Of a stretch of DNA of 64,000 nucleotides, positions 1 through 20,958 are shown in pieces. The notes under the pieces were generated by a model that worked only from the letters and a program-made list of their open reading frames with translations, was not told the origin of the DNA and searched no databases. Each line of letters opens with the position of its first letter. Position 1 is the stretch's first letter. The stretch spans positions 18,937 through 82,936 of IMG/VR virus record IMGVR_UViG_3300047321_000170; one strand, given 5' to 3'. The position numbers and the translations under genes are program-made. The stretch comes from a virus.

Positions 1-1224
1 CGCCCATTCAGTCCTGCCCCACCACCGGGCCGCAAGGATGCACTGATACGCACACTGAAGATCCAGCTCGGGCTCTCGTGCAACTACAGCTGCGAGTACT
101 GCTCGCAGCGCTTCGTGCCTCACGCGGAGCCAACCGGCCCTTACTCTGTCGACCACTTCATGTCTCGCCTCACCTGGTCCGTCACGCTGGCCGACGATGC
201 CGAAGTCGAGTTCTGGGGTGGTGAGCCGCTGGTCTACTGGAAGACGCTTGTTCCATTGGTGGACGCGCTTCGCATGCGCTACCCGGCGCTGACGCTGAAG
301 ATGATCACGAACGGCTCGCTGCTCGACGCGAACAAGGTCAGCTGGCTGGTCACGAACGGCTTCCATATCGGCCTGTCGCACGATGGCCCCGGTCAGAAGG
401 TGCGCGGTCCTGATCCGCTCGACGAGCCACAGACGCGCGACGCCATCCTCTCGCTGTATCGACGGCTCGCACCGCTGGGGCGCATGTCGTTCAACACGAT
501 GCTGCACAAGGACAACCGGTCGCGCGCGGCAGCGCAGGACTTCTTCGTCAAGCTGACGGGTGACGCGAACGTGCCCATCGGTGAGGGCATGCTGATCGAC
601 GCCTACGACGAAGGCGGCAAGGGCATGTCCATGCTGGATCTGGACGCGCACATCGACTACCGCAAGCAGACCTTCGACGAGCTGCGCGCTGGCCGCGCCG
701 TCAACTTCACGAGCGTTACCGGGAAGATCCATGACTTCGCGGACTCGCTTCAGACGAGCCGCCCCGGCTCCTCGGTCGGCCAGAAGTGCGGCTCGGATCG
801 CAGCGACGTGGTCACCGTGACACTGAACGGCGATGTGCTGACGTGCCAGAATGTGTCGGCAGTCTCGACGGCCCCCAACGGCAAGCCTCACCGAGCGGGC
901 TCCATCGAGAGCATCGACAGCGTAAAACTCGAGTCCTCGCGCCACTGGTCAACACGCGTGAACTGTTCGAGCTGCCCGGTCGTGCAGCTCTGCAAAGGCT
1001 CCTGCATGTTTCTGGAGGGCGACCTCTGGGACGTGACGTGTGAGAGCGCCTACAGCGACAACGTGGTGTTCCTGGCCACCGCCCTGTTCGAGCTGACTGG
1101 CTGCACCCTGAAGACTATCAAGCCGATGACGGGGCACTTGCCCGAGCACCGTCGCAACGTCTTCGGCCCACTCACCACCAAGCGGACCACCACCCGCCAA
1201 CCGATCTGGATCAAACAGCAATGA
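1..1224 (+). CDS. Radical SAM/SPASM enzyme (5' end uncertain or cut by window edge)
   Basis: The frame is open from base 1. It carries the radical SAM cluster motif CNYSCEYC, with cysteine codons at 79, 91 and 100, which binds the 4Fe-4S cluster that cleaves S-adenosylmethionine. A GGEPL SAM-binding motif follows. A C-terminal SPASM region (about 780-1050) has seven cysteines (QKCG, LTCQN, NCSSC, LCKGSC, VTCES), as in anaerobic sulfatase-maturase and RiPP-maturase relatives that modify peptides. GTG 115 lies after the cluster motif and cannot be the start. The start is upstream of the window, or possibly CTG 43 behind AAGGA 34-38. The stop overlaps the next ATG by 4 bases. Family assignment is firm; the substrate is unknown. 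Confidence 0.88.
   Translation, partial: RPFSPAPPPGRKDALIRTLKIQLGLSCNYSCEYCSQRFVPHAEPTGPYSVDHFMSRLTWSVTLADDAEVEFWGGEPLVYWKTLVPLVDALRMRYPALTLKMITNGSLLDANKVSWLVTNGFHIGLSHDGPGQKVRGPDPLDEPQTRDAILSLYRRLAPLGRMSFNTMLHKDNRSRAAAQDFFVKLTGDANVPIGEGMLIDAYDEGGKGMSMLDLDAHIDYRKQTFDELRAGRAVNFTSVTGKIHDFADSLQTSRPGSSVGQKCGSDRSDVVTVTLNGDVLTCQNVSAVSTAPNGKPHRAGSIESIDSVKLESSRHWSTRVNCSSCPVVQLCKGSCMFLEGDLWDVTCESAYSDNVVFLATALFELTGCTLKTIKPMTGHLPEHRRNVFGPLTTKRTTTRQPIWIKQQ
16..30 (+). promoter_or_regulatory. CCACCAC-loop hairpin
   Basis: GCCC (16-19) pairs with GGGC (27-30) around loop CACCACC. Bases 18-34 are identical to 61835-61851 in front of the major capsid gene. An AAGGA follows at 34-38. If this is a leader, as elsewhere in the genome, the radical SAM gene would start just after it. 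Confidence 0.5.
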
Positions 1225-2271: not shown

Positions 2272-2681
2272 TGCCACGATCCAGCGACTTCATCGCAAGA
2301 CTAGGCTTCACGACCTACACACTGGTCGTGTGTCTCACTTCCATCTTCTCTAACAACTGGGTGGCGGTTGTGAGTCGGTATAGCGGAGGGGCGGTCTTCT
2401 CGACGCTCCTCCTGCTGACCGGCACGTTGCTGGTGATCGACCTGGTCATCAACGACCTCATGCCCGAGCGGTTCGTTTTCCAATGGGGTTTGAAGTGGCG
2501 TCACTGGGTCTACCCCTGCGTGTCATTTGCCTTCACGTCGCTCCTTTTTATCGCTGAACAAACCTATAAGAGCGTCCCTCTCGACGCCCTCGCGGTCTAC
2601 GGCTCGATGGCCCTTATCGGCGTCGTGCTGAGTTTCCGCAATCTCTTTTCTGAACGGGGTCGAGTGTGCAAAGAACACTAA
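2271..2681 (+). CDS. Multi-pass membrane protein of the lysis cassette
   Basis: A 136-residue protein with about four hydrophobic stretches (near 11-28, 38-60, 77-95 and 105-122) and basic loops. It starts in the endolysin stop (TGATG) and overlaps the following membrane gene. Position and topology suit a holin, antiholin or other lysis-timing protein. No family is recognised, so the role rests on context. Confidence 0.75.
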   Translation: MPRSSDFIARLGFTTYTLVVCLTSIFSNNWVAVVSRYSGGAVFSTLLLLTGTLLVIDLVINDLMPERFVFQWGLKWRHWVYPCVSFAFTSLLFIAEQTYKSVPLDALAVYGSMALIGVVLSFRNLFSERGRVCKEH

Positions 2682-3067
2682 GAATCTGGGCGCTCTTGCT
2701 GGCGCTCACCTGGTCCGCAGCGGCCTATGCAGCAACCCATGCACAAGTCGCATTCGGTTCTGACCTGGCCCGCATCCCGATGCTGGCCTATGTCATCACG
2801 ATCGTGCTGAGCGGCATCGGTGGCGCCGCTTCCACGCTTCAGAAGCTGTCGCGCGCCGCAGACCTGTCGCGCTGGCAGCTGGAGGTCGTGAAAGACACCG
2901 TGTCGGCAATCGTCGCGGGCCTGCTCGTGTTCTTCCTGTGCGAGTCGTTCGAGTGGGATTCAGCGCGCGAGGCCTTCGCGATCACGATCGCCGGCTACGG
3001 AAACTCGAAGCTGATCGACCTGATGTTCCGCAACTTCGTGAAGCAACTGCCGGAGCCGAAGCAATGA
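2666..3067 (+). CDS. Putative holin
   Basis: A 133-residue protein starting at GTG 2666. It has an N-terminal hydrophobic segment with a signal-like AAAYAATHA end, a second membrane segment (AYVITIVLSGIGGAAS), and a third (VSAIVAGLLVFFLC) before a charged C-terminus. This resembles phage holins that permeabilise the inner membrane for endolysin release. It overlaps the genes on both sides, so the cassette is tightly coupled. Which of the two membrane genes is the true holin cannot be decided here. Confidence 0.7.
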   Translation: MQRTLRIWALLLALTWSAAAYAATHAQVAFGSDLARIPMLAYVITIVLSGIGGAASTLQKLSRAADLSRWQLEVVKDTVSAIVAGLLVFFLCESFEWDSAREAFAITIAGYGNSKLIDLMFRNFVKQLPEPKQ

Positions 3068-3600
3068 GCCTCCAATTCACAGCCATTTGTGCCGCCGTCG
3101 CCGCGTTGGTTGCGGCAGGCGGCAGCTGGTACGTGACCCGCGATGTCTACAAAGCCGACATCGCAGTCATGCAACGCGACGCGGCGACTGCGGCGGAACA
3201 CGCGCAGCAGCATCTCGACAGCGCGCTGGCTTTCGCGCAGACGCAGTCTCAACTCGATCTCAACGCGATCGACCAGAACTACAGGACGAAGATCAATGAA
3301 AAGGATTCTCAGCATCAGCTCGATGTCGCTGCTGTGCGCAACGGCACTCTCCGCTTGCGTGACAGCGCCGCAACCTGCCGCGCCGCAGATGAACAAGTTC
3401 CAACTGGCACCAGTGTCAGCGGAGCTGATGGAGCCGGTGGTGCCGAACTATCGCCTGCGGCTACTGAGTTTCTTCTCGGAGAAGCCGACCGAGCAGACGG
3501 CCAAGCCCTTCGCGTTACAGCCCTCCAGCAAGTAGTCGCTGATGACCGCAAGGTCATCGACGAGCTGGTGCGCAGCTTGATGGGGGTAGCTGCAAAGTGA
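3064..3600 (+). CDS. Rz: Inner-membrane spanin (Rz-like)
   Basis: Starting at ATG 3064 the 178-residue protein has one N-terminal membrane segment (about 5-25) followed by a Gln/Ala/Asp-rich coiled-coil periplasmic region and LRLRDSAATC, typical of Rz proteins. With Rz1 it spans the periplasm and disrupts the outer membrane after the peptidoglycan is cut. A lipoprotein gene lies wholly inside it in another frame, the classic lambda-type Rz/Rz1 nesting. Confidence 0.85.
   Translation: MSLQFTAICAAVAALVAAGGSWYVTRDVYKADIAVMQRDAATAAEHAQQHLDSALAFAQTQSQLDLNAIDQNYRTKINEKDSQHQLDVAAVRNGTLRLRDSAATCRAADEQVPTGTSVSGADGAGGAELSPAATEFLLGEADRADGQALRVTALQQVVADDRKVIDELVRSLMGVAAK
3296..3535 (+). CDS. Rz1: Outer-membrane spanin lipoprotein (Rz1-like), nested in Rz
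   Basis: ATG 3296 opens a 79-residue frame inside the Rz gene. The signal peptide ends in lipobox LSAC, with Cys21 as the predicted lipidated residue, followed by a Pro-rich mature N-terminus (VTAPQPAAPQ). Both features are typical of Rz1. The coding is entirely out of frame with Rz. Confidence 0.85.
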   Translation: MKRILSISSMSLLCATALSACVTAPQPAAPQMNKFQLAPVSAELMEPVVPNYRLRLLSFFSEKPTEQTAKPFALQPSSK

Positions 3601-4301
3601 CCATCGCTGCTCCGCTCTCAGTCGCGCCTGTCAATCCGGAAGGCCAGCCGATCGTGCTGGTCATCGCGCCGGTCTACAACAATCTCGGAACAAACATGCC
3701 TGTGAAGCTCCTGCATGGAAGTGGTGCGCCGTCTAATGACATCGGTACGGACGGCGACTCCTACATGAACGACGACAACGGATACTTCTACGGGCCGAAA
3801 GCAAACGGCCTGTGGCCGTCTGGCTACTCGCTGAAGGGGAACACCGGGGATCGTGGGCTCGATGGCGCACCGGGCGATCCGGGGCCTGCTGGCCCCAAGG
3901 GCGCTGACGGCGCAGCTGGTCCGCAGGGTCCGAAAGGCGACAGCTTCTATGACGTGTTCACGTACCCGATTCCGGACGTGGCGCCGGGGGCGCATGCCGA
4001 GCTGGACATGACAGGCTCGGTCCCCTCCTTCGGCAAGACCACCGTCATGTTCCAGTCGGTGCGCGTGGTCGTGCAGACGGCCGATCCGTACCGCATCGAG
4101 ATCTGCGAGCGTGACGCGCAGAACGCCGACACGGTGATCTACGCAAGCGCGCCGCAGCTCGACGCTTCGTACCGTGACAGTCGGCCGTTCACTGCGGACA
4201 AGCTCGATCCTGCGAACAAGCTGATCTTCAAGTTCTATAACCAGGCGTCGAGCACGACGATCTCTGGCGCGCAGTTGCGCACTGTCTCGACGGGAGTGTA
4301 A
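3597..4301 (+). CDS. Collagen-like tail/fibre protein
   Basis: A 234-residue protein starting at GTG 3597, which overlaps the Rz stop as GTGA. The N-terminal part ends in GYFYGPKANGLWPSGYSL, a tail-attachment type of stretch. About 12 Gly-X-Y triplets follow (residues 83-118), then a beta-rich C-terminal domain. The collagen segment predicts trimerisation. It is probably a virion fibre or adhesin component, since fibre genes follow directly. Confidence 0.75.
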   Translation: MTIAAPLSVAPVNPEGQPIVLVIAPVYNNLGTNMPVKLLHGSGAPSNDIGTDGDSYMNDDNGYFYGPKANGLWPSGYSLKGNTGDRGLDGAPGDPGPAGPKGADGAAGPQGPKGDSFYDVFTYPIPDVAPGAHAELDMTGSVPSFGKTTVMFQSVRVVVQTADPYRIEICERDAQNADTVIYASAPQLDASYRDSRPFTADKLDPANKLIFKFYNQASSTTISGAQLRTVSTGV

Positions 4302-7235
4302 ATGCGACCACCGTGGGACTCAGTCAACGACTTCCTTCAGATCTACCCCGGTACGCTGAATCAGGGGCTGGACCCGGCGAACCTGCGCGACCAGTTCTTC
4401 CCGGCCAGCGCGTTCGTGCTGAACGAATCTTTCACGCTGCCTGGCGGAACTGGCAAGACTACCGGGGCGTGGTCGTCGGATTCTGGCGACCAGACGATGC
4501 CGGCCGCGCAGATGGAACCTCGCGTCTACTGCACGAAGGGCAAGGCAACGCTCAACTTCAACGGCACATCGCTGGTCCTGCGTATTCAGCTTGACTCGGA
4601 CTGGGGCACTGCCGCGATCTACATCGACGGCAAAGCTCCCAGCACGATGGGTCTGGCTACCGCGCTCGACACGATCAACTGCAACCTCGACACGTCCAGC
4701 TACCCCGGCATGCAGCCGGGAGTGCGTCAGTACATCGACGTGCTGGTGGCAGATGGACTGACACCAGGCCTGCACACGGTCGACCTGTATGCGACGAACG
4801 GCGGGACTACCAAGTACCTGGTGGTCTCGGGTGCGAAGGTACGCTCGTACAACAAGCAGCCGTTCGTGCTCAGCGGCTGGAAAGCAGCTAACCTGAATAC
4901 CGGCAAGCTGACGCTCGCGAACCGTGGTGCGGACGCCGTGCTGAACGTGACGTTGCAGGTTCCGGCGACGTTCAAGCAGGCAAGCGACGGCACCGCCTTC
5001 GCCTCACCGATCGCGGTCGGGAACCTGACGCCTGACTCACAGTTCGACCTCAACTATTCGATCGACGGCTCGGGCCAGCCCGACAACGTCTCGATCCCGC
5101 TGTACCTGTCGGGGCTCTACCGAGATCCAGCTGGCGCCGTCCAAGTGAACACGCCGTTCACCTATGGCATGACCAGCTCCGCGGTCACCTTCGGCCCGCT
5201 CAACGGCTGGTCGTTCGACGCGGATACACCCGATGGTTCCACGCGCGCGATCTCGAATGGCACGGCCAAGACGCTCAGCTTCTTCACGAGCGCAACCTCG
5301 GTGGACTTCACACTCCAGCGCGACAACGGCTGGGGCACAGCATCCGTACTGGTCAACGGCGTCTCGTACGGCACGCTCACGTCCAACGATGCAGTAGGTG
5401 GAGGCTTCCTCGCGGTTCAGACGATCTCTGGTCTGCCGGCTGGTAAGAAGCAGGTTGTCATCTCGACGCTCGGGACAGCAGCTCACCCACTCGTCATCAC
5501 CAAGATCGCTGGTCAGAACAGCGACTGGTACTCGCAGGTTAATGAAACCATCTTCGTCAACTACGCCTTCAGCAACGTACCTCCGTTCGCTGTTGATGCG
5601 GCATGGGCGAAGGACGATGTCGGCGTGACGTGGGTCAATCCCGACACCAGCAAGGTGGATCTCAGCATCCCGCGAGACAGCCGCAATGCAACCGGCGTGC
5701 GCGCGTATGCCCGGTTCCCCACCTTCGCGGTCTACTACCAGAGTGGCAAGCAGGACATCCTCTCCAGCTATGACCTCGTGATCGTGGACCCCAACGGGGT
5801 CTCACGACAGGACGTGCAGGCTCTTCAAGCCAAAGGGATCAAGGTTCTAGGATACGTCTCGTTCGGCGAAGAAGACGGCATCGTGCAGGACATCTACGAT
5901 CCGAACTCGCCGATCGGCCCGTGGAGGGATGACGGCCTGGGCACTGGCGGCTACGCCTCCTACTACAACAAGGGCGGCAACCTGTACGGCGAGCCCACCG
6001 AATGCAATCGCGACCTTCAGCGCACACAAGGCCTGAAGCAGTGCGAGCTGGGCCGCGCCGAATACTTCACGGGTCGCGGTCGATGCAGCCAGGCCTGCAC
6101 GTTCGACAGCCGCGCTGGCTACGTGACGTACAGCGCGGGTGGCAAATGCGGCGGTGGCTTCACGAGCAGCAATAACTGGATTCGTGACGAGTCGGCAGCA
6201 TGCACGAACGGTGACTGCCCCAAGTACACGCCGGTCAACAAGAAGTGCCCGAAGTGGATCGAACCAGATGTGGGTTGGGGGCAGGACTTTTCGCAGACGG
6301 AAGACTTCCCTGACCAGAACGGCATCTGGGGCTCGACGTACATCAACCCGCTCGCGCCAAGGTGGAAGGAGAAACTTCAAACCTTGTACCTTCCGACTGT
6401 GCTCGATGCTGGCGTGAAGTACATCGAAGAGGTCAAGACACTCGTGGCCTATGGCTCGACACAAATGAGCTTCCGTGCCGCCCACTGGCCGATCGACGAT
6501 GCCGAAGAGTTGGTCCTCACCAACGCTGACCGCAGCATCACGTACACGCCGAATCTGCACTTCGGATACGACAAGGCGACCGGCGCGTTCACGATGGACA
6601 ACAACGTTGGCGTGGAAGACTTCGGCTGGCCTCCGCTCGTCGCGGGACAACAGCTGTTGCTCACGTACACGCGCAAAGGCCTGCAATGCGATGGCGTGTT
6701 CATGGACACGGTCGATACGGTTGACATCTACCCGTCCGACGCATTCCAGCAGGCGATGGCTGACATGATCAACAGCCTGTTCGACGAGCGTAAGGCCACC
6801 ACGCCCAAGCTCTTCTGCTCGAACCGTGGCTTCACGATCCTGCCGAAGATCGTCCAGTCGTGTGAGTACGTCATGTTCGAGAGCTGGCTCACGGACTATG
6901 ACTTCGAGAAAGGCGTCTATGGCCCGATCACAGATCCTGAGTCCATCGCGTTCAACAACGGTGTGAAGGCGATGCTCCGTCAGCTGCGGCGTGAGCACAC
7001 CTTCGATGTTCTGTCGTTGAACTACTGCACGAACGGCCCTGCTGGCAACACGCTGCGTCAGTACCTGTATGACACCGACTCGGCGGAAGGCTACATGAGC
7101 TGGTCTTCCGTGATTGAACTCGACGACCCACTCCCGCAGCAGCAGATGCAAACGACTGTCGCCGCCGCGATCCGTTCGAACGTGTGGGCACTGCTGCGCA
7201 GCGGCGGTCTCACTGACGGCCAACCTAATAGCTAA
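4302..7235 (+). CDS. Tail-associated glycosidase, GH114-like TIM barrel with carbohydrate-binding modules
   Basis: A 977-residue protein. Two similar beta-sandwich modules (about 55-190 and 295-410) share a DxxWGTAxxxxxG motif and look like carbohydrate-binding domains. From about 465 the sequence matches the GH114/endo-alpha-1,4-polygalactosaminidase type: YDLVIVDPNGV, LQAKGIKVLGYVSFGE, GVFMDTVDTVD (about 798-808) and MFESW (about 860). An insertion at about 565-650 contains eight cysteines. The likely role is cleavage of a galactosamine-type exopolysaccharide or capsule on the host surface. The fold assignment is moderate, the substrate inferred. Confidence 0.78.
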   Translation: MRPPWDSVNDFLQIYPGTLNQGLDPANLRDQFFPASAFVLNESFTLPGGTGKTTGAWSSDSGDQTMPAAQMEPRVYCTKGKATLNFNGTSLVLRIQLDSDWGTAAIYIDGKAPSTMGLATALDTINCNLDTSSYPGMQPGVRQYIDVLVADGLTPGLHTVDLYATNGGTTKYLVVSGAKVRSYNKQPFVLSGWKAANLNTGKLTLANRGADAVLNVTLQVPATFKQASDGTAFASPIAVGNLTPDSQFDLNYSIDGSGQPDNVSIPLYLSGLYRDPAGAVQVNTPFTYGMTSSAVTFGPLNGWSFDADTPDGSTRAISNGTAKTLSFFTSATSVDFTLQRDNGWGTASVLVNGVSYGTLTSNDAVGGGFLAVQTISGLPAGKKQVVISTLGTAAHPLVITKIAGQNSDWYSQVNETIFVNYAFSNVPPFAVDAAWAKDDVGVTWVNPDTSKVDLSIPRDSRNATGVRAYARFPTFAVYYQSGKQDILSSYDLVIVDPNGVSRQDVQALQAKGIKVLGYVSFGEEDGIVQDIYDPNSPIGPWRDDGLGTGGYASYYNKGGNLYGEPTECNRDLQRTQGLKQCELGRAEYFTGRGRCSQACTFDSRAGYVTYSAGGKCGGGFTSSNNWIRDESAACTNGDCPKYTPVNKKCPKWIEPDVGWGQDFSQTEDFPDQNGIWGSTYINPLAPRWKEKLQTLYLPTVLDAGVKYIEEVKTLVAYGSTQMSFRAAHWPIDDAEELVLTNADRSITYTPNLHFGYDKATGAFTMDNNVGVEDFGWPPLVAGQQLLLTYTRKGLQCDGVFMDTVDTVDIYPSDAFQQAMADMINSLFDERKATTPKLFCSNRGFTILPKIVQSCEYVMFESWLTDYDFEKGVYGPITDPESIAFNNGVKAMLRQLRREHTFDVLSLNYCTNGPAGNTLRQYLYDTDSAEGYMSWSSVIELDDPLPQQQMQTTVAAAIRSNVWALLRSGGLTDGQPNS

Positions 7236-8936: not shown

Positions 8937-9254
8937 ATGCCAGCTGGCCGCTACAACCTTTTGATCGAGCAAGGCGCAACCTTCCGCCTTCCGTTCATCT
9001 ATCGCGACGTGGGCGGTAATCCCGTCCAGTTCGACAACATGCAGGGCGTGATGACGCTGTTCGATCCGAATGGCACAGTAGTCCTGAAGAAAACATCACC
9101 AGATGGTGTGCGCCTCGCAGTCGCAGGCTCGATCGACATCGAGCTGACGGCGGTCGAGACCGCAGCCCTCTCGGTCGGTGGGACGTATCGCTTCGAGCTG
9201 GTCAACGGCACGGATGTCGATCGGGTGCTCAAGGGAACGTGGAGCCTCGAATGA
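8937..9254 (+). CDS. Small beta-sandwich tail protein
   Basis: A 105-residue protein of Ig-like beta pattern (YNLLIEQGATFRLPFIYRD, then GVMTLFDPNGTVVL). It resembles the protein starting at 63714 in its opening and size, so the two may be the same class of tail-assembly or fibre-linking protein. AAGGA at 8924-8928 supports ATG 8937. Its stop overlaps the collagen-fibre ATG. Confidence 0.75.
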   Translation: MPAGRYNLLIEQGATFRLPFIYRDVGGNPVQFDNMQGVMTLFDPNGTVVLKKTSPDGVRLAVAGSIDIELTAVETAALSVGGTYRFELVNGTDVDRVLKGTWSLE

Positions 9255-10738
9255 GCGATACCAATCTGGTTGTTGAAGTGCATCCGACGCTGCACAACAC
9301 CGTCGAAGTGCGCGCGGCCTCTAAGGCGGTGGACGTGCTCCCGCAGACGGGCAATCAAGTCGATACACATCCGCTCTCGCCGCTCGTCGAAGTGCGCGCG
9401 CCTGGCCTTCAGGGGCCGAAGGGAGATCCGGGTGATGTCGGCCCGACTGGTCCTGCTGGTGCGCAGGGCGAGCAAGGTCCGGAAGGTCCGCAGGGCGTGC
9501 CGGGTCCGAAGGGCGACGTGGGCGATCACGGGCCGCAGGGCATTCAGGGCGAGAAAGGTGACCCCGGCGCGCAGGGTCCACAGGGCCTTCCCGGTGTAAA
9601 GGGTGACACCGGGCCGCAGGGTTTGCAGGGGCCGAAGGGTGATCAGGGCGACCCTGGCCCGCAGGGGCCGCAAGGCCTGAAGGGCGACAAGGGCGATCAG
9701 GGCGACCAGGGGCCGCAGGGGATTCCGGGTGTGAAGGGTGACACCGGAGCGGCCGGCGCGGCTGGCGCGCAAGGGCCGGTCGGCCCTGCCGGTGCCGATG
9801 GTCTGCAAGGCCCAGCTGGTCCGAAAGGCGACAAGGGTGACCCTGGCGCGCAGGGGCCGCAGGGCGAGGTTGGCCCGATGGGACCGGCAGGCAGCGGTGA
9901 GGGAAGCATCGGCCCGGAGGGGCCGCAGGGTGTGGCCGGCCCGCAGGGGCCGAAGGGCGACACAGGCGACGTGGGACCGGCAGGCGCGCAGGGGCCGCAG
10001 GGTGAACAAGGGCCAGCCGGTGCGGACGGAGCGCAGGGGCCGCAGGGCATCCAGGGCGAGCCGGGTCCGAAGGGCGACACAGGCGCGCAGGGGCCGCAGG
10101 GTATCCAAGGCGAGAAAGGCGACACAGGGGCGCAAGGTCCGCAGGGGCTTCAGGGTCTGAAGGGTGACCAAGGTGACCCCGGTGCGCAAGGGCCGCAAGG
10201 GCTAAAGGGCGACACCGGGGCGCAAGGGCCGCAGGGCTTGAAGGGCGACACCGGGGCGGCAGGCGCGCAGGGCATTCAGGGGCCGCAGGGCACGCAAGGT
10301 GTGCAGGGCGTGAAAGGCGACACGGGCGTGCAGGGACCGCAAGGTGTTGCTGGTCCCACCGGCGCCACCGGCCCGCAAGGGCCGAAGGGTGACCCAGGCG
10401 CTACTGGCCCAGGAGCTATTCCGCTCCCCGGCACGATCGCCACCGCGTCCAAGACACTGGCTCTCACCGATGCGCCCTCCCCGGCCTATCAGGGTGGCGT
10501 GCCGATGAACGTGGCGACGGCGAACACCGTGACCGTCCCGCCGAACGCGAGCGTGGCCTTCCCGGTCGGCACCATGATCATGGTCGGCCAGCTAGGCGCG
10601 GGGCAGACCAGCATCGTGGCCGGATCTGGCGTGACGCTGCGCACCAGCTCGTCGCTGACGCTGCGCGCGCAGTACTCGTGTGCCACGCTCTGGAAGGTGG
10701 ACACCGATACGTGGATGGTGATGGGAGATCTGACGTGA
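9251..10738 (+). CDS. Long collagen-like tail fibre
   Basis: ATG 9251, overlapping the previous stop, gives 495 residues. There is a roughly 55-residue N-terminal attachment region, then more than 110 Gly-X-Y triplets dominated by GPQGxKGDxG types (about 54-400). A compact C-terminal head follows, with a small Ser/Thr-rich beta domain. This is a trimeric collagen-like fibre shaft with a receptor-binding tip. Proline-rich reverse-strand frames here are artefacts of the triplet repeat. Confidence 0.88.
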
Positions 10739-12496: not shown

Positions 12497-13780
12497 ATGG
12501 CGCGTAAAACACATCTTCTGGACGACATCCAGATCCGGCACTGGATCGCCAAGGGCGAGCCGGTCGCCAAGTCAGATGGTGAAGGCCTGACCTTTACCCT
12601 CTCCTCAGCCGGCACCGCGAGCTGGATCTTGCGCTACCGCCGAGGCGGCGGTCGCCGTAAGGAAATCACGATCGGCAACTATCCGGACATGACGCTCGCC
12701 GCGGCCCGAAAGGCTGCTCGTGCCCACCGCGTCGCGGTCGACAATGGGATAGACCCCGCAGCTGAGAAGAAGGTCGAGAAGGCGCGCTCCGTGCTCGCGT
12801 GGACCGTCAACGAGCTGTGCGACGACTACGAGGAGAAGCACCTGGTGGCGCCCCTCTCGAAGTCCACGATCTATTACCGGAAGTGGGACATCAAGAACAT
12901 CATCCGGCCTAAGCTGGGTTCGCTCGAAGTTCGCAAGATCCTGCCTGCTGACATCGTCTACATTCTGGAGAACAGCGGGCGCACCTGGACGGTGAATAAG
13001 CGAATCCTTACATCTATGAAGCAGCTCTTTGGCCATGCGCTAGGGAAGCGGATCATCGACGTGAACCCCGCCTTCGGTATCGAGATGAAGGCACTGTTCG
13101 GCAAACGCCCGCCCGTTCGCAAACGCCTGATGCTCACCGAGGGCGAGCTTCGCAAACTGCTGCCTGGCATTGACAAGAAGATCGGCCGCGAGAACGGCCT
13201 CATGCTGCGCGTGCTGCTGGCTACCTGCGTGCGAACGAACGAGCTGGTCATGGCCCGCAAGCAGTTCATCGATCTGAAGCGCGGCTCCTGGTTCGTACAC
13301 GACGAGTCGGTCAAGACTCGTCAAGGCTTCACCGTCCCGCTGGTTCCTGTCGTCATTGGCTGGATGAAAGAGCTGTACGCCCTGTCCGGAGACTCCGACT
13401 GGCTGTTGCCAGCTCGCAGCAACAAACGCCGCAACCGGCTTGGTGAAACTCATATCGGCAATACCACGCTGTGGGCCGCGATCACGCGAGCGTTCCAATC
13501 TGAGAAGCTGGAGATGCGTCGCTTCACGCCGCACGATACGCGCAGCACCGCCAAAAGCCATATGCGGAATCTGGGCATCTCGAACGAAGTCAGTGAGCTT
13601 GCGCTTAACCACAAGCTCAAAGGTATGGAAGGGATCTATGACGTGCGAGAAGAGATCCCCGAGCGACGCGAGGCGATGGAGATATGGGCGCAGTTCATTG
13701 CAGACTGCTGCGACGGTAAGGAACCGGAAACGGGCCGACCAACGAACGTGGTCGCATTGAGAAGGAAGGCTGCGGCTTGA
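12497..13780 (+). CDS. int: P4-type tyrosine recombinase (integrase)
   Basis: A 427-residue protein. It has the DUF4102-type N-terminal arm-binding domain (DGEGLTFTLSSAGTASWILRYRR, ITIGNYPDMTLAAARKAA). The C-terminal catalytic domain contains Arg near 245 (TCVRTNEL), HDTR near 346-349 and the Tyr nucleophile near 381 (EGIYDVREE). It catalyses site-specific integration of the phage at a host attB, often a tRNA gene in this family. The lead-in CCACCACAGAG is close to the start. It is followed by a minus-strand terminator. Confidence 0.93.
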   Translation: MARKTHLLDDIQIRHWIAKGEPVAKSDGEGLTFTLSSAGTASWILRYRRGGGRRKEITIGNYPDMTLAAARKAARAHRVAVDNGIDPAAEKKVEKARSVLAWTVNELCDDYEEKHLVAPLSKSTIYYRKWDIKNIIRPKLGSLEVRKILPADIVYILENSGRTWTVNKRILTSMKQLFGHALGKRIIDVNPAFGIEMKALFGKRPPVRKRLMLTEGELRKLLPGIDKKIGRENGLMLRVLLATCVRTNELVMARKQFIDLKRGSWFVHDESVKTRQGFTVPLVPVVIGWMKELYALSGDSDWLLPARSNKRRNRLGETHIGNTTLWAAITRAFQSEKLEMRRFTPHDTRSTAKSHMRNLGISNEVSELALNHKLKGMEGIYDVREEIPERREAMEIWAQFIADCCDGKEPETGRPTNVVALRRKAAA

Positions 13781-16353: not shown

Positions 16354-16949
16354 TGGTCACCCAGCGCGTTGACCTTGTCGAACAGATCGTCGGCCTGCAA
16401 CTCCAGACCGTGAATGTCGCCCTCGACATTGGTGATCACGAAGTCGAACGGCCAGTCGTCGAGCCCGCCTTCGCTGCTGTGGTCCTGCACGGCACGCGGC
16501 ACGCCAGGGCGGTTCACGCGCACGAAGGTCGTCTGCACGTCAGACGCTATGAGGCGGTCGCCTTCTCCGTGCCGATAGCGCCAGTCATCGATCACATAGA
16601 TGCTATGAGGCTCGCTGCGTTCGTCGGCATGAATGCCCGTGACCACGAGGTTCGCCCAGAACAGCGGCGAAATCCTGCGGCCCATGTCGCCCAGCTCGCG
16701 CATCAACCCGCGTGGTGACATACCGAACAGCTCGCGGATAGGTAGGTTCTTCAGGGTCGCGTGGTCGACGATCTTTCGCGCTTCCATCAAGTCGTCCCCA
16801 GCGCTGGCCAACAGAACGGCGGTCATCTCCTTGATCGGAGCAGCAAAGCGCGTGCGCTTTACGCCGTATGTCGAAAGCAGGTAGTTGGCCACGGTGGACT
16901 TGCCGTGACCCATGTCGCCAGATAGCGCAATGATTCGAGGTTTCATCAT
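16350..16949 (-). CDS. Deoxynucleoside monophosphate kinase
   Basis: 199 residues with P-loop GDMGHGKS (11-18) and PRGLMRELGDMGRRI, VVTGIHADERS and VIDDWRYRHEGD-like strands. This matches phage dNMP kinases (T4 gp1 type), which phosphorylate dNMPs for DNA synthesis. The ThyX stop overlaps the start; ATG 16949 and 16946 are both possible. It is grouped with ThyX in one nucleotide-supply unit. Confidence 0.82.
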   Translation of the reverse strand: MMKPRIIALSGDMGHGKSTVANYLLSTYGVKRTRFAAPIKEMTAVLLASAGDDLMEARKIVDHATLKNLPIRELFGMSPRGLMRELGDMGRRISPLFWANLVVTGIHADERSEPHSIYVIDDWRYRHGEGDRLIASDVQTTFVRVNRPGVPRAVQDHSSEGGLDDWPFDFVITNVEGDIHGLELQADDLFDKVNALGDQ

Positions 16950-17917
16950 GCCTCCCGACGCGGGTAGATCTCGTCGGCATCCATCGCCGCCTGGACCTGC
17001 GCACGCAGCCCGCTTTTCTGCGATTGCGTCAACGGTTGACTGAAGAACTTCACCATCTCGTCGTGAGTCAACGTGCGTCGCAGCCGACCTCCTGTGTACG
17101 GCGGCAGCACGGCCTCGACTTCCTGACGGTGTTGCTTCCAGCCACGCAGGTTGCCGAAGCGCTCGTTCGCGCCGACAGTCGGCGTTGCCTGGTGCTCTGT
17201 CGGCGAGGCGTGGATTGGCTGGGCGCCGACGAGGCGGTCATAGCGCTCACGCTCCTTTTCGACGGACGGGTTGCCATCGAACGGCGTGTAGCTGATCCGT
17301 GCACAGCGAGCGACCGACAGCTTTTTCTGGTCGTCGAGCGGGAGCGAGCGGCGCTCTTCGGTGAGAACATACGGGAGATGCCATTCGCCCCCGCGCAGCA
17401 CGCGCGGAACGCTCAGCTCGATAGCAACCATGATCTCGATGGCCAGGTCGCGCATCGTGGGATCGGCGTCGGGGTGGCAGCGCAGCAGATCGAAGTTGTC
17501 CCAGTCCGTGCCGCTGAGCAGCGCGTCAACATACTGGTGCGCTTCGGTGACGCGGTTGGCAATCTGCTTGTGCGCGCCGAGCTTCATCATGCTCCAGCTG
17601 ATCGCTGCGGAGAGCTTCGCGTGCGTGCGCCAGAGTGCCTTCACGCCGAACAGACGCAGACCCGTCAGCGCCGCGCCCGCTTGCATGCCAGCCTGGTTGC
17701 TACCCCATTCGCTCGGACAGGCCGGGTCGCTCCAGATCTGCTTGAGCATGGTCTTCACAGGCTTCGCACGCGAGGAACCGGCGTTCTTCGACAGTGCGCG
17801 ATGCGTGTTGACTTCTGCTAGGACGATGCGCGGATAGCGCACCTGAACGGTCGTGAATCGAACACCCGCAAGAGAGATCGAATCTTCGATGACCTTGGCC
17901 AGAATAGTAGGTTTCAT
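16946..17917 (-). CDS. thyX: Flavin-dependent thymidylate synthase
   Basis: 323 residues. The ThyX signature region is HRALSKNAGSSRA (39-51), a variant of RHRxxSxNxxSxR, followed by SEWGSNQAGMQ and GHKQIANRVTE-like helices of the fold. It makes dTMP from dUMP with FAD, NADPH and methylene-folate. The arrangement next to dNMP kinase and MazG-like genes supports a role in dNTP supply. A CCACCAC-loop hairpin precedes the start. Confidence 0.9.
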   Translation of the reverse strand: MKPTILAKVIEDSISLAGVRFTTVQVRYPRIVLAEVNTHRALSKNAGSSRAKPVKTMLKQIWSDPACPSEWGSNQAGMQAGAALTGLRLFGVKALWRTHAKLSAAISWSMMKLGAHKQIANRVTEAHQYVDALLSGTDWDNFDLLRCHPDADPTMRDLAIEIMVAIELSVPRVLRGGEWHLPYVLTEERRSLPLDDQKKLSVARCARISYTPFDGNPSVEKERERYDRLVGAQPIHASPTEHQATPTVGANERFGNLRGWKQHRQEVEAVLPPYTGGRLRRTLTHDEMVKFFSQPLTQSQKSGLRAQVQAAMDADEIYPRREA

Positions 17918-17926
17918 CTTCGGTTC

Positions 17927-17948
17927 AGGGCCGGTGGTGGACGGCCCT
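17927..17948 (-). promoter_or_regulatory. CCACCAC-loop hairpin before thyX
   Basis: AGGGCCG and CGGCCCT form a perfect 7-bp stem; the loop on the mRNA is UCCACCAC. It is intercistronic, 9 bases before the ThyX ATG. Confidence 0.72.
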
Positions 17949-17961
17949 GCCTGTTGTCGTT

Positions 17962-18537
17962 TTAGGAGTTGCGTGCGTCGAGACCGCCCTTGTCTGCTCG
18001 TGCTTCAGCAGCGGCGTTCGAGTAGGCATCGGGGAATCGTTCGCGCAGCTTGGCGATGTTCTCTTCCATCACGTCTTCGATGGCGAAGCCCAGTGCGTCG
18101 CATGCGTGCGCTACCGCACAAACGACATTCAGGACACCACGCATAATGGAATCCTTCGACGACGCATCGCTCAAGTTCGGAAGCCCGAAGGCAATAAACC
18201 CGGTCTCGATGGCCAAGCGGAAAGAAACCAGCTTCAACTTCTCCGTGAGCGAATAGCTGTCGAAGTCGTCGAACAGATACTGATACTCGGGAATGTCGAA
18301 CTCCAGAGCGTCACAAGCGATAGCGGCATACCAGAGGGTGTCGCCCAGCTCTTCACGCATGTGCGCGACGAACTCGGGGCTTAGCTTCTTGCCGTAGATC
18401 GCAACCCGTTTCACTGTGGTGGTGAATTCGCCGCTCTCGGTGGCCAGACCGAGGATGGCGTGCTCAAGGCGCAGAAAGGCCGTGGCCAACGGCTTTTCTG
18501 TGCGAAGAGCGAGAGGTACGTATTCTTGAAAGTTCAT
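17962..18537 (-). CDS. MazG-like NTP pyrophosphohydrolase
   Basis: ATG 18537 gives 191 residues. LEHAILGLATESGEFTTTVKR carries the ExxE motif, EELGDTLWYAAIACD the ExxD motif and EENIAKLRERFPD the ending, as in phage MazG proteins. The start has no Shine-Dalgarno but is directly preceded by CACCACATC, as in two other genes here. Confidence 0.85.
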   Translation of the reverse strand: MNFQEYVPLALRTEKPLATAFLRLEHAILGLATESGEFTTTVKRVAIYGKKLSPEFVAHMREELGDTLWYAAIACDALEFDIPEYQYLFDDFDSYSLTEKLKLVSFRLAIETGFIAFGLPNLSDASSKDSIMRGVLNVVCAVAHACDALGFAIEDVMEENIAKLRERFPDAYSNAAAEARADKGGLDARNS

Positions 18538-18565
18538 GATGTGGTGGTAGTGGTGGTGGTGAAAT

Positions 18566-18913
18566 TCAATAGGTCTCGGGCGGCGCTGTGAACCACAGCC
18601 GGCGCGCGACGACTTCCTCGACGGGAAAGGCATACTGGATTAGGTAGCCTTCATCCATCTTCTGCATAAGCGTCAACTCCCCCTTGTCATGCTTGATCTT
18701 GCAGATTGCCAATCGTCCAAGATCCGCGTCGGGCCACCGGCGCTCGCCGCGGTTGCGGCGGGCGATGATGTGGGGGTAGTGCTTCGGCTCGCCCCACCCT
18801 GCGAGGGGTAGCTCGCGCATCACTTGGGCAACCCGCTCAACGGTGGTGTCGAGGAGCGTAGCGATGTCGGGCGGGGTGTAGTTCTGATCCAGTAGAGTCT
18901 TTATGTTTTCCAT
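18566..18913 (-). CDS. HTH-like protein of unknown function
   Basis: 115 residues. The first part, MENIKTLLDQNYTPPDIATL then DTTVERVAQVMREL, reads as a helix-turn-helix. The rest contains HYPHIIARRNRGERRWPDAD. It lies between the Rad50-like and MazG-like genes. DNA binding is likely, role unknown. Confidence 0.65.
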   Translation of the reverse strand: MENIKTLLDQNYTPPDIATLLDTTVERVAQVMRELPLAGWGEPKHYPHIIARRNRGERRWPDADLGRLAICKIKHDKGELTLMQKMDEGYLIQYAFPVEEVVARRLWFTAPPETY

Positions 18914-18924
18914 AGGCGGTCAGT

Positions 18925-20958
18925 TCATGCAGCTTCCTTCAGGGGTAGCGTGAAAACGTGATCTGCGATCGGCCGCTTGTGCGTCACAACGATCACCTGT
19001 TTGATGGTCTCCTTCAAACGCTGAAGGCACTCAGCGGTGTAACGGGCGCGCTTCTCGTCCATCGACTCGTCGAACTCGTCGGCCATGAACACAGAGAACA
19101 CACCGTTGGTCAGAACCTGACCGAGACCGATCCGCAAAGCGAGATTGGCCACGGCCTTGCCCGAACCCGACAACGTCTGAACCTGCTGGCCATCGACCGT
19201 GATGTTGAACTCGTCGTCAACGACGATTGAGCTGCGAGCACCACCCGTCATCTGGTTGATCAGCATGGACGCGACCTTGTTCAGCGATGGCACCAGGTAC
19301 GACTTGATGACCACCTTCGCCTCGGCGATCGCAGCCTTGGCGTTTGTCCAATCCGTGGACTGCTCCAGCAGCCCGTCCATCTTCAGCTTGTCCTCCACGT
19401 AGGAGCGCACAGAAGCCTCGTAGGCGCCCTGGGCCTGCTCATAAGCACGCGAGGCCACCAGGCGCTCTTCCAGAGCCACCAGACGCCCTTCTACGGGCTC
19501 CAGCTCCCGGATGCGTGCCTCGCGCTCCTTGAGCTGGGCGAAGAACTGCTCGTACGCGGCTACCTGCGCGCCGTGGGCCAGGAGCGCGCCATCGAACTTC
19601 TGGCGTTCAGCGATGCGCCCCGATTGGTCCGGATTCGCTTTCAGCAGATCGTCCAGCTGCACGATGTTCTTCGCGTTGGCCTCGAACGCCTCGACCTTCT
19701 CAGCGATCTGCTTGACCTTCTCGTCCATCTTGGCCGCGATCTGCTCTTTCTCAGCCGCAACGTCACGCTCCAGCTGCGGAATCGAGTCTTCGAGCTGCTT
19801 CTTCAGATCGACGTTGAACTGGAGAGCGCGCTGCGCGTTCAGGTAGCCAGCCGAATACTGCGACGGCTGGATCTCGATCGCGTCCGCATAGGCGTCCAGC
19901 TCCTCGCTCGCGACCGGCCAGGTGTGCGAGCACTTCGGGCACGAGTGGTGACCCTGTGCCAGCAGCTTCTGCTTCGCCGCCCAACGGGCGTGCTTCTCGT
20001 TGCGGCTGAACTGTTCGTCGATCGCGGCGGTCGTCATCTCCGGCAGCTTCAGCTCGGCCAGCTTCGCGCGGACCTGTGCCAGCTGCTTGGCCGAATACGA
20101 CTCACCATCGAGCTGGGCGGCGAGCTTCAGCAACTCACCCTCGACAGTCGTTTTCTCGCGCATGATCTGCGAGGCATTGCTGTCCGCCAGCTTGCGGGCG
20201 TCGAGCAGCTGCCCGCGGATGTCCTGAAGACTTTGAAGCGTCGCGACCGTCTCGTTGACCTCGCACACGGGCGCCACCGGCTCGGCTGGCTTGTTGGCAA
20301 CCATGCCGCGCAGCTGGTTCAACTCCGTCGCGATCAACACAGCTTCCTGACGCTTCAGCGCCAGCGTCGAGCTGCTTTCGTAGTTCTCCGGGACTTCCGG
20401 CTGGACTGGCTCACGCAAGACGCCCGCGATGCCCTCGGCCTGGCGCGCAAACTTCAGCGCCTGCTCGCCCGCTTCCTTGATCAGATCGTCCAGCACGGCG
20501 AGGCCGACAGTCTGGTCGACGATCTTCTTGCGCTCACCAGGCTTCGCGTCCGACAGAGCTTCGACGGCCCCTTGCATCACTGCGTTGGCCATCGTGAACA
20601 CGCTGTAGTCGTAGCCGAAGATCTCTTTCATCTTCAGGTTGACCGGCTTCGTACCGACCGCAACATCGTGCTCAGCGTTGTCGTTCAGCGGCGCACGAAT
20701 CAGTTTTGCGTTCTTGATCGTGCGGTTGACGCGGTAGCGCTGATCCTTGACGACGAAAGTCAGCGTGACATCGAGCTTCTTATAATCGTCGGCGACACCG
20801 CGCAGCGCGACGCTGCCCCACAGCGCGAACAGAATCATTTCAAGCGTGACCGACTTGCCAGATTCATTCTCACCAGTGATCGCTGTCTGGCCAGCCTGGA
20901 AGTTGAAGACCGAATGCGGATGACGGAAGCCGTTCTTGATGATCAATTGTTCAAGCAT
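18925..20958 (-). CDS. Rad50/SbcC-like recombination ATPase (gp46 type)
   Basis: 677 residues. Walker A GENESGKS (29-36), a long coiled-coil with zinc hook CPKC near 340, the ABC signature LSGSGKAVANLALRIGLG near 592 and Walker B/D-loop VFMADEFDES near 623. With the Mre11-like partner next door it forms an exonuclease complex for end processing and recombination-dependent replication. It is shorter than bacterial SbcC, as usual for phages. Confidence 0.92.
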   Translation of the reverse strand: MLEQLIIKNGFRHPHSVFNFQAGQTAITGENESGKSVTLEMILFALWGSVALRGVADDYKKLDVTLTFVVKDQRYRVNRTIKNAKLIRAPLNDNAEHDVAVGTKPVNLKMKEIFGYDYSVFTMANAVMQGAVEALSDAKPGERKKIVDQTVGLAVLDDLIKEAGEQALKFARQAEGIAGVLREPVQPEVPENYESSSTLALKRQEAVLIATELNQLRGMVANKPAEPVAPVCEVNETVATLQSLQDIRGQLLDARKLADSNASQIMREKTTVEGELLKLAAQLDGESYSAKQLAQVRAKLAELKLPEMTTAAIDEQFSRNEKHARWAAKQKLLAQGHHSCPKCSHTWPVASEELDAYADAIEIQPSQYSAGYLNAQRALQFNVDLKKQLEDSIPQLERDVAAEKEQIAAKMDEKVKQIAEKVEAFEANAKNIVQLDDLLKANPDQSGRIAERQKFDGALLAHGAQVAAYEQFFAQLKEREARIRELEPVEGRLVALEERLVASRAYEQAQGAYEASVRSYVEDKLKMDGLLEQSTDWTNAKAAIAEAKVVIKSYLVPSLNKVASMLINQMTGGARSSIVVDDEFNITVDGQQVQTLSGSGKAVANLALRIGLGQVLTNGVFSVFMADEFDESMDEKRARYTAECLQRLKETIKQVIVVTHKRPIADHVFTLPLKEAA

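Follow-up and report, generated by a model that had tools for sequence, protein, structure and literature searches.

Pairing of a phage radical SAM/SPASM enzyme with tail fibres that carry an Asn-Cys repeat, and its possible role in fibre-tip maturation

Radical SAM/SPASM enzymes acting on a Cys-rich sequence encoded beside them are represented by the ranthipeptide and SCIFF maturases (PapB, CteB) and by the NxxcA enzyme. Beta-thioethers from Cys to Asn (NxxcA) and from Cys to Asp (freyrasin) are known (PMC8326336), and varied spacing is accepted by PapB (PMC9413430). From phages, a radical-SAM module has been described in Cumys and phiMa of Thermus, and DNA modification was suggested by its describers (PMC11437467). 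The gene treated here lies at the left edge of the window (the whole stretch of DNA analysed, 64,000 nucleotides), which corresponds to positions 18937-82936 of the full viral record G000 (82,936 bases). The features of the locus were as follows, in window coordinates unless the record or L002 is named.

L002:12541-16158, upstream of the window: lambda-J-like central fibre
Record 16683-18116 (same numbers in L002), outside the window, two genes upstream of the enzyme: tail fibre of 477 aa that contains an Asn-Cys repeat and then a Hint domain
Record 18113-18814, outside the window, between fibre and enzyme: accessory protein of 233 aa
1-1224, + strand: 3' portion of the radical SAM/SPASM enzyme gene, comprising the final 407 of its 449 codons
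79-102, + strand: CNYSCEYC, the radical-SAM cluster motif (CX3CX2C), identified by reading the sequence and unchanged in all 63 aligned sequences
217-231, + strand: SAM-binding motif GGEPL, read in the sequence, GGEP invariant in the 63-sequence alignment
787-1041, + strand: SPASM domain with seven auxiliary-cluster cysteines, TIGR04085 above cut-off, all seven invariant
1221-1604, + strand: coiled-coil-like protein of 127 aa, ATGA overlap with the enzyme gene
1631-1653, + strand: terminator-like hairpin found in the sequence, end of the operon
1741-2271: GH19 endolysin (PF00182)
2666-3067: holin (PF16083)

The 5' end of the enzyme gene is cut by the window edge. Translation begins 125 bases outside it, at an ATG that overlaps the stop of the preceding gene, and in the full record the gene is complete at 18811-20160 (L003:811-2160; 449 aa). 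An intact radical SAM/SPASM enzyme with CNYSCEYC, GGEPL and seven SPASM cysteines had been reported in the first-pass annotation, and this description was confirmed; none of the ten cluster cysteines varies across the 63 diverse sequences aligned. The SPASM cysteines (C305, C324, C364, C367, C373, C377 and C389) are spaced canonically as CX13GX4C...CX2CX5CX3C...C, within the membership motif CX9-15GX4C...CX2CX5CX3C...C. The TIGR04085 SPASM model scored 29.6 bits (cut-off 27) and the radical SAM family phrog_1802 of PHROG matched with E = 1e-58, while Pfam Radical_SAM gave 26 bits, slightly below its 29.5-bit cut-off. The structure model (pLDDT 92.7, pTM 0.90) matched radical-SAM structures, and together with the alignment it displayed the partial TIM-barrel core with CX3CX2C; the nearest solved structures were CteB, a thioether-forming enzyme and the best fold match, and anSME. 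The gene at window 1-1224 is a canonical radical SAM/SPASM enzyme.

Comparison with HMMs of the SPASM subfamilies, which had been proposed as a check, upheld the domain through TIGR04085 and gave no family name. The enzyme fell far under the cut-off of every curated maturase family in the profile comparison; the top NCBIfam profile was PapB (49.7 bits against a cut-off of 340), followed by QhpD (TIGR03906; 48 bits against 453), and the sulfatase maturase ranked lower and was likewise far below its cut-off. The reaction is therefore not readable from family membership, and by these profile scores the enzyme would not be classed as a member of the ranthipeptide or sactipeptide maturases.

The late-region setting described earlier also stood, with the ATGA overlap to the coiled-coil gene and the hairpin at 1631-1653 followed by endolysin and holin; a terminator is annotated at the equivalent place in the record of Achromobacter phage JWF. 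The position of the 127-aa gene is conserved in JWF and in Achromobacter phage 2-1, but with identity of merely 24-30%. This coiled-coil partner had been offered as a possible substrate; it has a single Cys and was rejected, as was the 233-aa neighbour on the same count. The virion protein offered as another candidate gained support, in the form of the 477-aa fibre. In that protein the repeat NCNCNCACT (residues 298-306) is followed directly by CFPAGTRI, the start of the Hint domain. The fibre partner had escaped the first-pass annotation because its gene is situated upstream of the window. Operon order and motif recur unchanged in JWF and 2-1, and the order fibre, accessory, enzyme is conserved across phages and contigs. 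Between the central fibre and the 477-aa fibre lies a gene whose 153-aa product matches a lectin below threshold.

Several other features of the record and its relatives were noted. A tyrosine integrase with an Arm-DNA-binding domain is encoded at window 12497-13780, so the phage is probably temperate. A 977-aa fibre-region protein (window 4302-7235) showed sub-threshold matches to GH114 and to a carbohydrate esterase N-terminal domain. A long collagen-like Gly-X-Y protein (499-aa ORF, window 9239-10738) belongs to a second fibre gene group, and a shorter collagen match lies within window 3597-4301. The genome of Burkholderia paludis MSh1 holds a close relative of the enzyme locus (L111).

Viral contigs were scanned for relatives with the enzyme; the enzyme profile, for which 16 relatives picked up by their similarity to the window enzyme were used, can miss distant partners. 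At least 599 matching stretches were obtained, of which at least 553 were confirmed relatives. For this family, the statement that such enzymes are rare in phages is therefore not borne out. All prevalence figures are lower bounds covering part of the scan matches, and sequence relatedness inflates the counts somewhat. In the forward direction, near-copies were removed, at least 5 kb of upstream sequence was required, and a tail protein was accepted on the same strand within 7 kb. Among the matches listed, a protein with an Asn-Cys tail was found near 60 of 79 radical-SAM loci. Some of the 19 loci with no detected tail are artefacts of the strict filter, for example those ending in TNCACACEC or GYCSYCSYCTCACSDCSC before the stop. 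One branch of chromosomal enzyme loci, from Variovorax, Ramlibacter and others, seems genuinely tail-less; it includes L169, L173, L174, L176, L177 and L180 (Variovorax, Ramlibacter and a gammaproteobacterium).

The reverse test took as its starting point a DNA pattern encoding NCNCNC-x-C, independently of the enzyme. Matches at the C-terminus of ORFs 60 aa or longer were retained, and a radical-SAM gene was accepted on the same strand within 5.5 kb. Among the matches listed, such a gene was present in 31 of 31 cases with at least 4 kb downstream and in 18/20 with 1.5-4 kb, and the Hint cases with room gave 4/4; the background was 1/13 for matches in no ORF frame and 0/5 for short ORFs. The 31 positives represent 29 clearly different enzymes; a few match weakly, at 50-135 bits, and two or more of the lowest-scoring ones may be fragments. 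With (Ala-Cys)4 as control pattern, radical-SAM neighbours were seen in 2 of the 120 stretches listed, and both tails also contain Asn-Cys (Fisher p = 3e-16 for 31/31 against 2/33). Codons for the NC units were mixed in 110/125 tails, with a usage resembling that of the rest of the gene, which argues that the repeat is kept as protein; on this ground and on that of the nearly negative control, a DNA-repeat artefact was rejected. The X of the (XC)n repeat was Asn in 68%, Ala in 14% and Asp in 10%.

The longer NC proteins matched PHROG tail-fibre families, often strongly, and are located among tail genes, as expected of tail fibres; several short ones had no PHROG match. A Cys-rich candidate substrate thus stands beside the enzyme, as it does for ranthipeptide and sactipeptide maturases, and linkage to phage genes, the absence of which in relatives had been named as grounds for abandoning the annotation, was found in both directions (60/79 and 31/31 of the matches listed). 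The pairing of fibre and enzyme is conserved. Apparently the enzyme belongs to a widespread phage system that is undescribed as far as could be found; no published account of it was found in the open-access literature.

Because enzyme and Asn-Cys tail co-occur in this way, the repeat of the fibre is very probably the substrate, a strong inference from sequence. This bears on the reading that the enzyme is a relative of the sulfatase maturases, or is directed at the host, and is merely adjacent to the fibre gene. The depositors of JWF named the enzyme an anaerobic sulfatase-maturating enzyme, and anSME is among the nearest folds; a host sulfatase would be a conceivable target. The record contains no sulfatase (PF00884), the Cys repeat has no CxPxR/CxAxR motif, and chance falls far short of explaining the two-way association with Asn-Cys tails, which spans 29 clearly different enzymes. 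The reading, which had also figured in the first-pass annotation, is thus highly improbable.

The enzyme is best explained as a maturase dedicated to the tail fibre of its own phage, an account to which, taken as a whole, a probability of about 0.6 is given. It would act on the repeat NCNCNCACT of the fibre encoded two genes upstream and would most likely form thioether bonds, by radical chemistry, from Cys sulfur to the beta (or alpha) carbon of nearby Asn or Asp, as in ranthipeptides and sactipeptides. The 233-aa protein is probably a recognition or assembly factor. A floppy Cys-rich tail would become a compact, oxidation-proof and possibly interchain-stapled fibre tip, which would be the presumable benefit to the virion.

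The Hint domain, which starts exactly at the Cys after the repeat, would cut there and leave the repeat as the mature C-terminus. The Hint part of the fibre was modelled confidently, the Asn-Cys repeat being disordered in the model, and a fold search with the Hint part returned Tetrahymena BIL domains, inteins and hedgehog; at the level of the model, the Hint fold of the C-terminal domain was confirmed. Cys1 and the block-B His are invariant in 16/16 aligned sequences. Neither a conserved terminal His-Asn nor a C-extein was found in the Hint alignment, so the domain does not qualify as a splicing intein, and self-cleavage at the N-terminal side, not splicing, is to be expected. Cleavage of the fibre by its Hint domain is accordingly considered likely. 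Cleavage before Cys1 would yield a C-terminus of the type encoded directly by Hint-less relatives, in which the fibre's own end is the repeat (for example YNCNCNCNCTCK, NCNCNCNCNCACDCNCGDA or YNCNCDCNCC before the stop). In a FastTree phylogeny of 113 enzymes six changes of the Hint state were needed, of which branches with good support force four or more; the tree thus appears to ask for repeated gain or loss of the domain. Divergent Hint domains after an Asn-Cys repeat were seen in several lineages (L016, L051, L062, L161, L163-L165, L258 and L273).

Thioether chemistry at the fibre tail is given an even chance. It is favoured since every unit supplies a sulfur, Asn and Asp acceptors are precedented, PapB tolerates varied spacing, and the nearest profiles and best fold point the same way; the geometry of adjacent Asn and Cys counts against it, as rings would be tight unless bonds skip residues or cross chains. 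Another chemistry could operate on the same tail, either Asn epimerisation by a PoyD-like reaction or oxidation of Asn or Cys side chains. SPASM enzymes are varied in their chemistry, YydG epimerase was among the weaker PDB profile matches of the enzyme, and the strict alternation of residues recalls polytheonamide, which is epimerised at every second residue (PMC8326336). Epimerisation needs no Cys in every unit, however, and the nearest profiles and folds are those of thioether formers and the sulfatase maturase. The presence of 2OG oxygenases in 48/105 clusters speaks for another chemistry on the tail. Overall these alternatives are judged unlikely, although they carry more weight than any other rival.

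A further possibility is that a trimeric fibre binds metal or an Fe-S cluster at its tip through the Asn-Cys tail, and that the enzyme would help to load or prepare this site with no cross-linking. HxH iron sites in T4 fibres provide a model, the alternating Cys would point inward in a trimer, and in Thermus phage Cumys an H-x-D-repeat protein stands beside a radical-SAM gene. Such a site leaves the preference for Asn over other residues unexplained, and no radical SAM/SPASM enzyme is known to load metal into a structural protein; the proposal is regarded as improbable.

The reading as a fibre maturase can be extended to the other genes of the clusters. At most loci one of two accessory families stands between fibre and enzyme: among 105 loci an Ig-like protein was counted in 67 and a relative of the 233-aa protein in 16, the two never co-occurring, and no homology was found between the two families. 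A 2OG-Fe(II) oxygenase was present in 48/105 loci, so the final modification may exceed thioethers; PF13759 and PF13640 members lie between fibre and enzyme in L016, L017, L019, L025, L026, L038, L068, L171 and many others. A few loci encode, in addition, another radical SAM enzyme or proteins whose His boxes resemble those of desaturases (recognised by eye; no Pfam match). These extra enzymes suggest multi-enzyme modification of the tail; the lineage of the window has the simplest gene set. The general proposition, that a large class of tailed phages finishes its fibre tips with RiPP-type radical chemistry, a C-terminal Asn-Cys repeat, native or Hint-exposed, being stapled by a dedicated maturase and often treated by a 2OG oxygenase or further enzymes, is held to be slightly better than an even bet.

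Which bacteria a phage can bind is decided by its tail-fibre tips, and these are usually considered to consist of amino acids without modification, in some cases with bound metal ions. If the proposal is true, radical-SAM modification would be a new layer of virion maturation at these tips and would account for many radical-SAM genes that stand without annotation in the late regions of phages. Chemists would also gain natural enzymes able to act on a short repeat that ends a large protein. The system is present in two isolated phages, Achromobacter JWF and 2-1, and is directly testable there. For the JWF fibre, the C-terminal peptide predicted after Hint cleavage and digestion with trypsin is QNCNCDCNCNCS, with a mass of 1319.346 Da unmodified and a calculated 1604.453 Da with all five Cys free and carbamidomethylated; that of phage 2-1 is predicted as ANCNCDCNCS (1045.272 Da). 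Each thioether would lower these masses by 2.016 Da; epimerisation leaves the mass as it is.

Weaker matches from phages differed from this arrangement. Campylobacter phage CC_R7 (a cultured phage) has a distant radical-SAM gene with no nearby Cys repeat and was set aside, as were three fecal 'Bacteriophage sp.' records (L311, L313 and L314; MT836984, MT837846 and MT836452), in which genes for SCIFF-like small Cys-rich peptides stand beside the radical-SAM gene instead and which may be bacterial DNA. In the viral contigs L202, L208, L260 and L305 a short protein ending in THTHIFFDDYSTACNCNCNCNCTRGIL adjoins at least one divergent radical-SAM gene, with up to three per locus.

Among known systems, the anaerobic sulfatase-maturating enzyme shares a similar fold and SPASM clusters, whereas neither a sulfatase nor a CxPxR-type target occurs here. 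QhpD, the quinohemoprotein amine dehydrogenase maturase, is also a radical SAM/SPASM enzyme and forms thioethers on a subunit of a larger complex; no quinohemoprotein genes are present here, and the proposed substrate is a phage fibre repeat. The Hint/BIL domains of inteins, hedgehog and Tetrahymena have the fold, Cys1 and the block-B His in common with the fibre domain, which differs in standing at a phage fibre end directly after an Asn-Cys repeat and in the lack of a terminal His-Asn. In the Cumys/phiMa module, too, the radical-SAM gene belongs to the late region and immediately follows that of a protein rich in repeats (H-x-D), but identity is about 25% over part of the enzyme, the partner is a DUF483 protein and there is no Cys repeat. 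In Cumys (PQ109079; L309:4940-7230) a 343-aa protein consisting mostly of H-x-D repeats (HTDTHSDTHTD...) directly precedes the radical-SAM gene and a DUF483 gene, and it may form with the former a parallel repeat-tail pair. PapB, CteB and the NxxcA enzyme are likewise radical SAM/SPASM enzymes encoded beside a Cys-rich precursor. Unlike in those maturases of ranthipeptide and SCIFF type, a winged-helix RRE domain is not evident at the N-terminus of the enzyme model, and where their precursor is a short peptide with a leader, the proposed one is a tail fibre, 100-600 aa long, that has the repeat at the C-terminal end.
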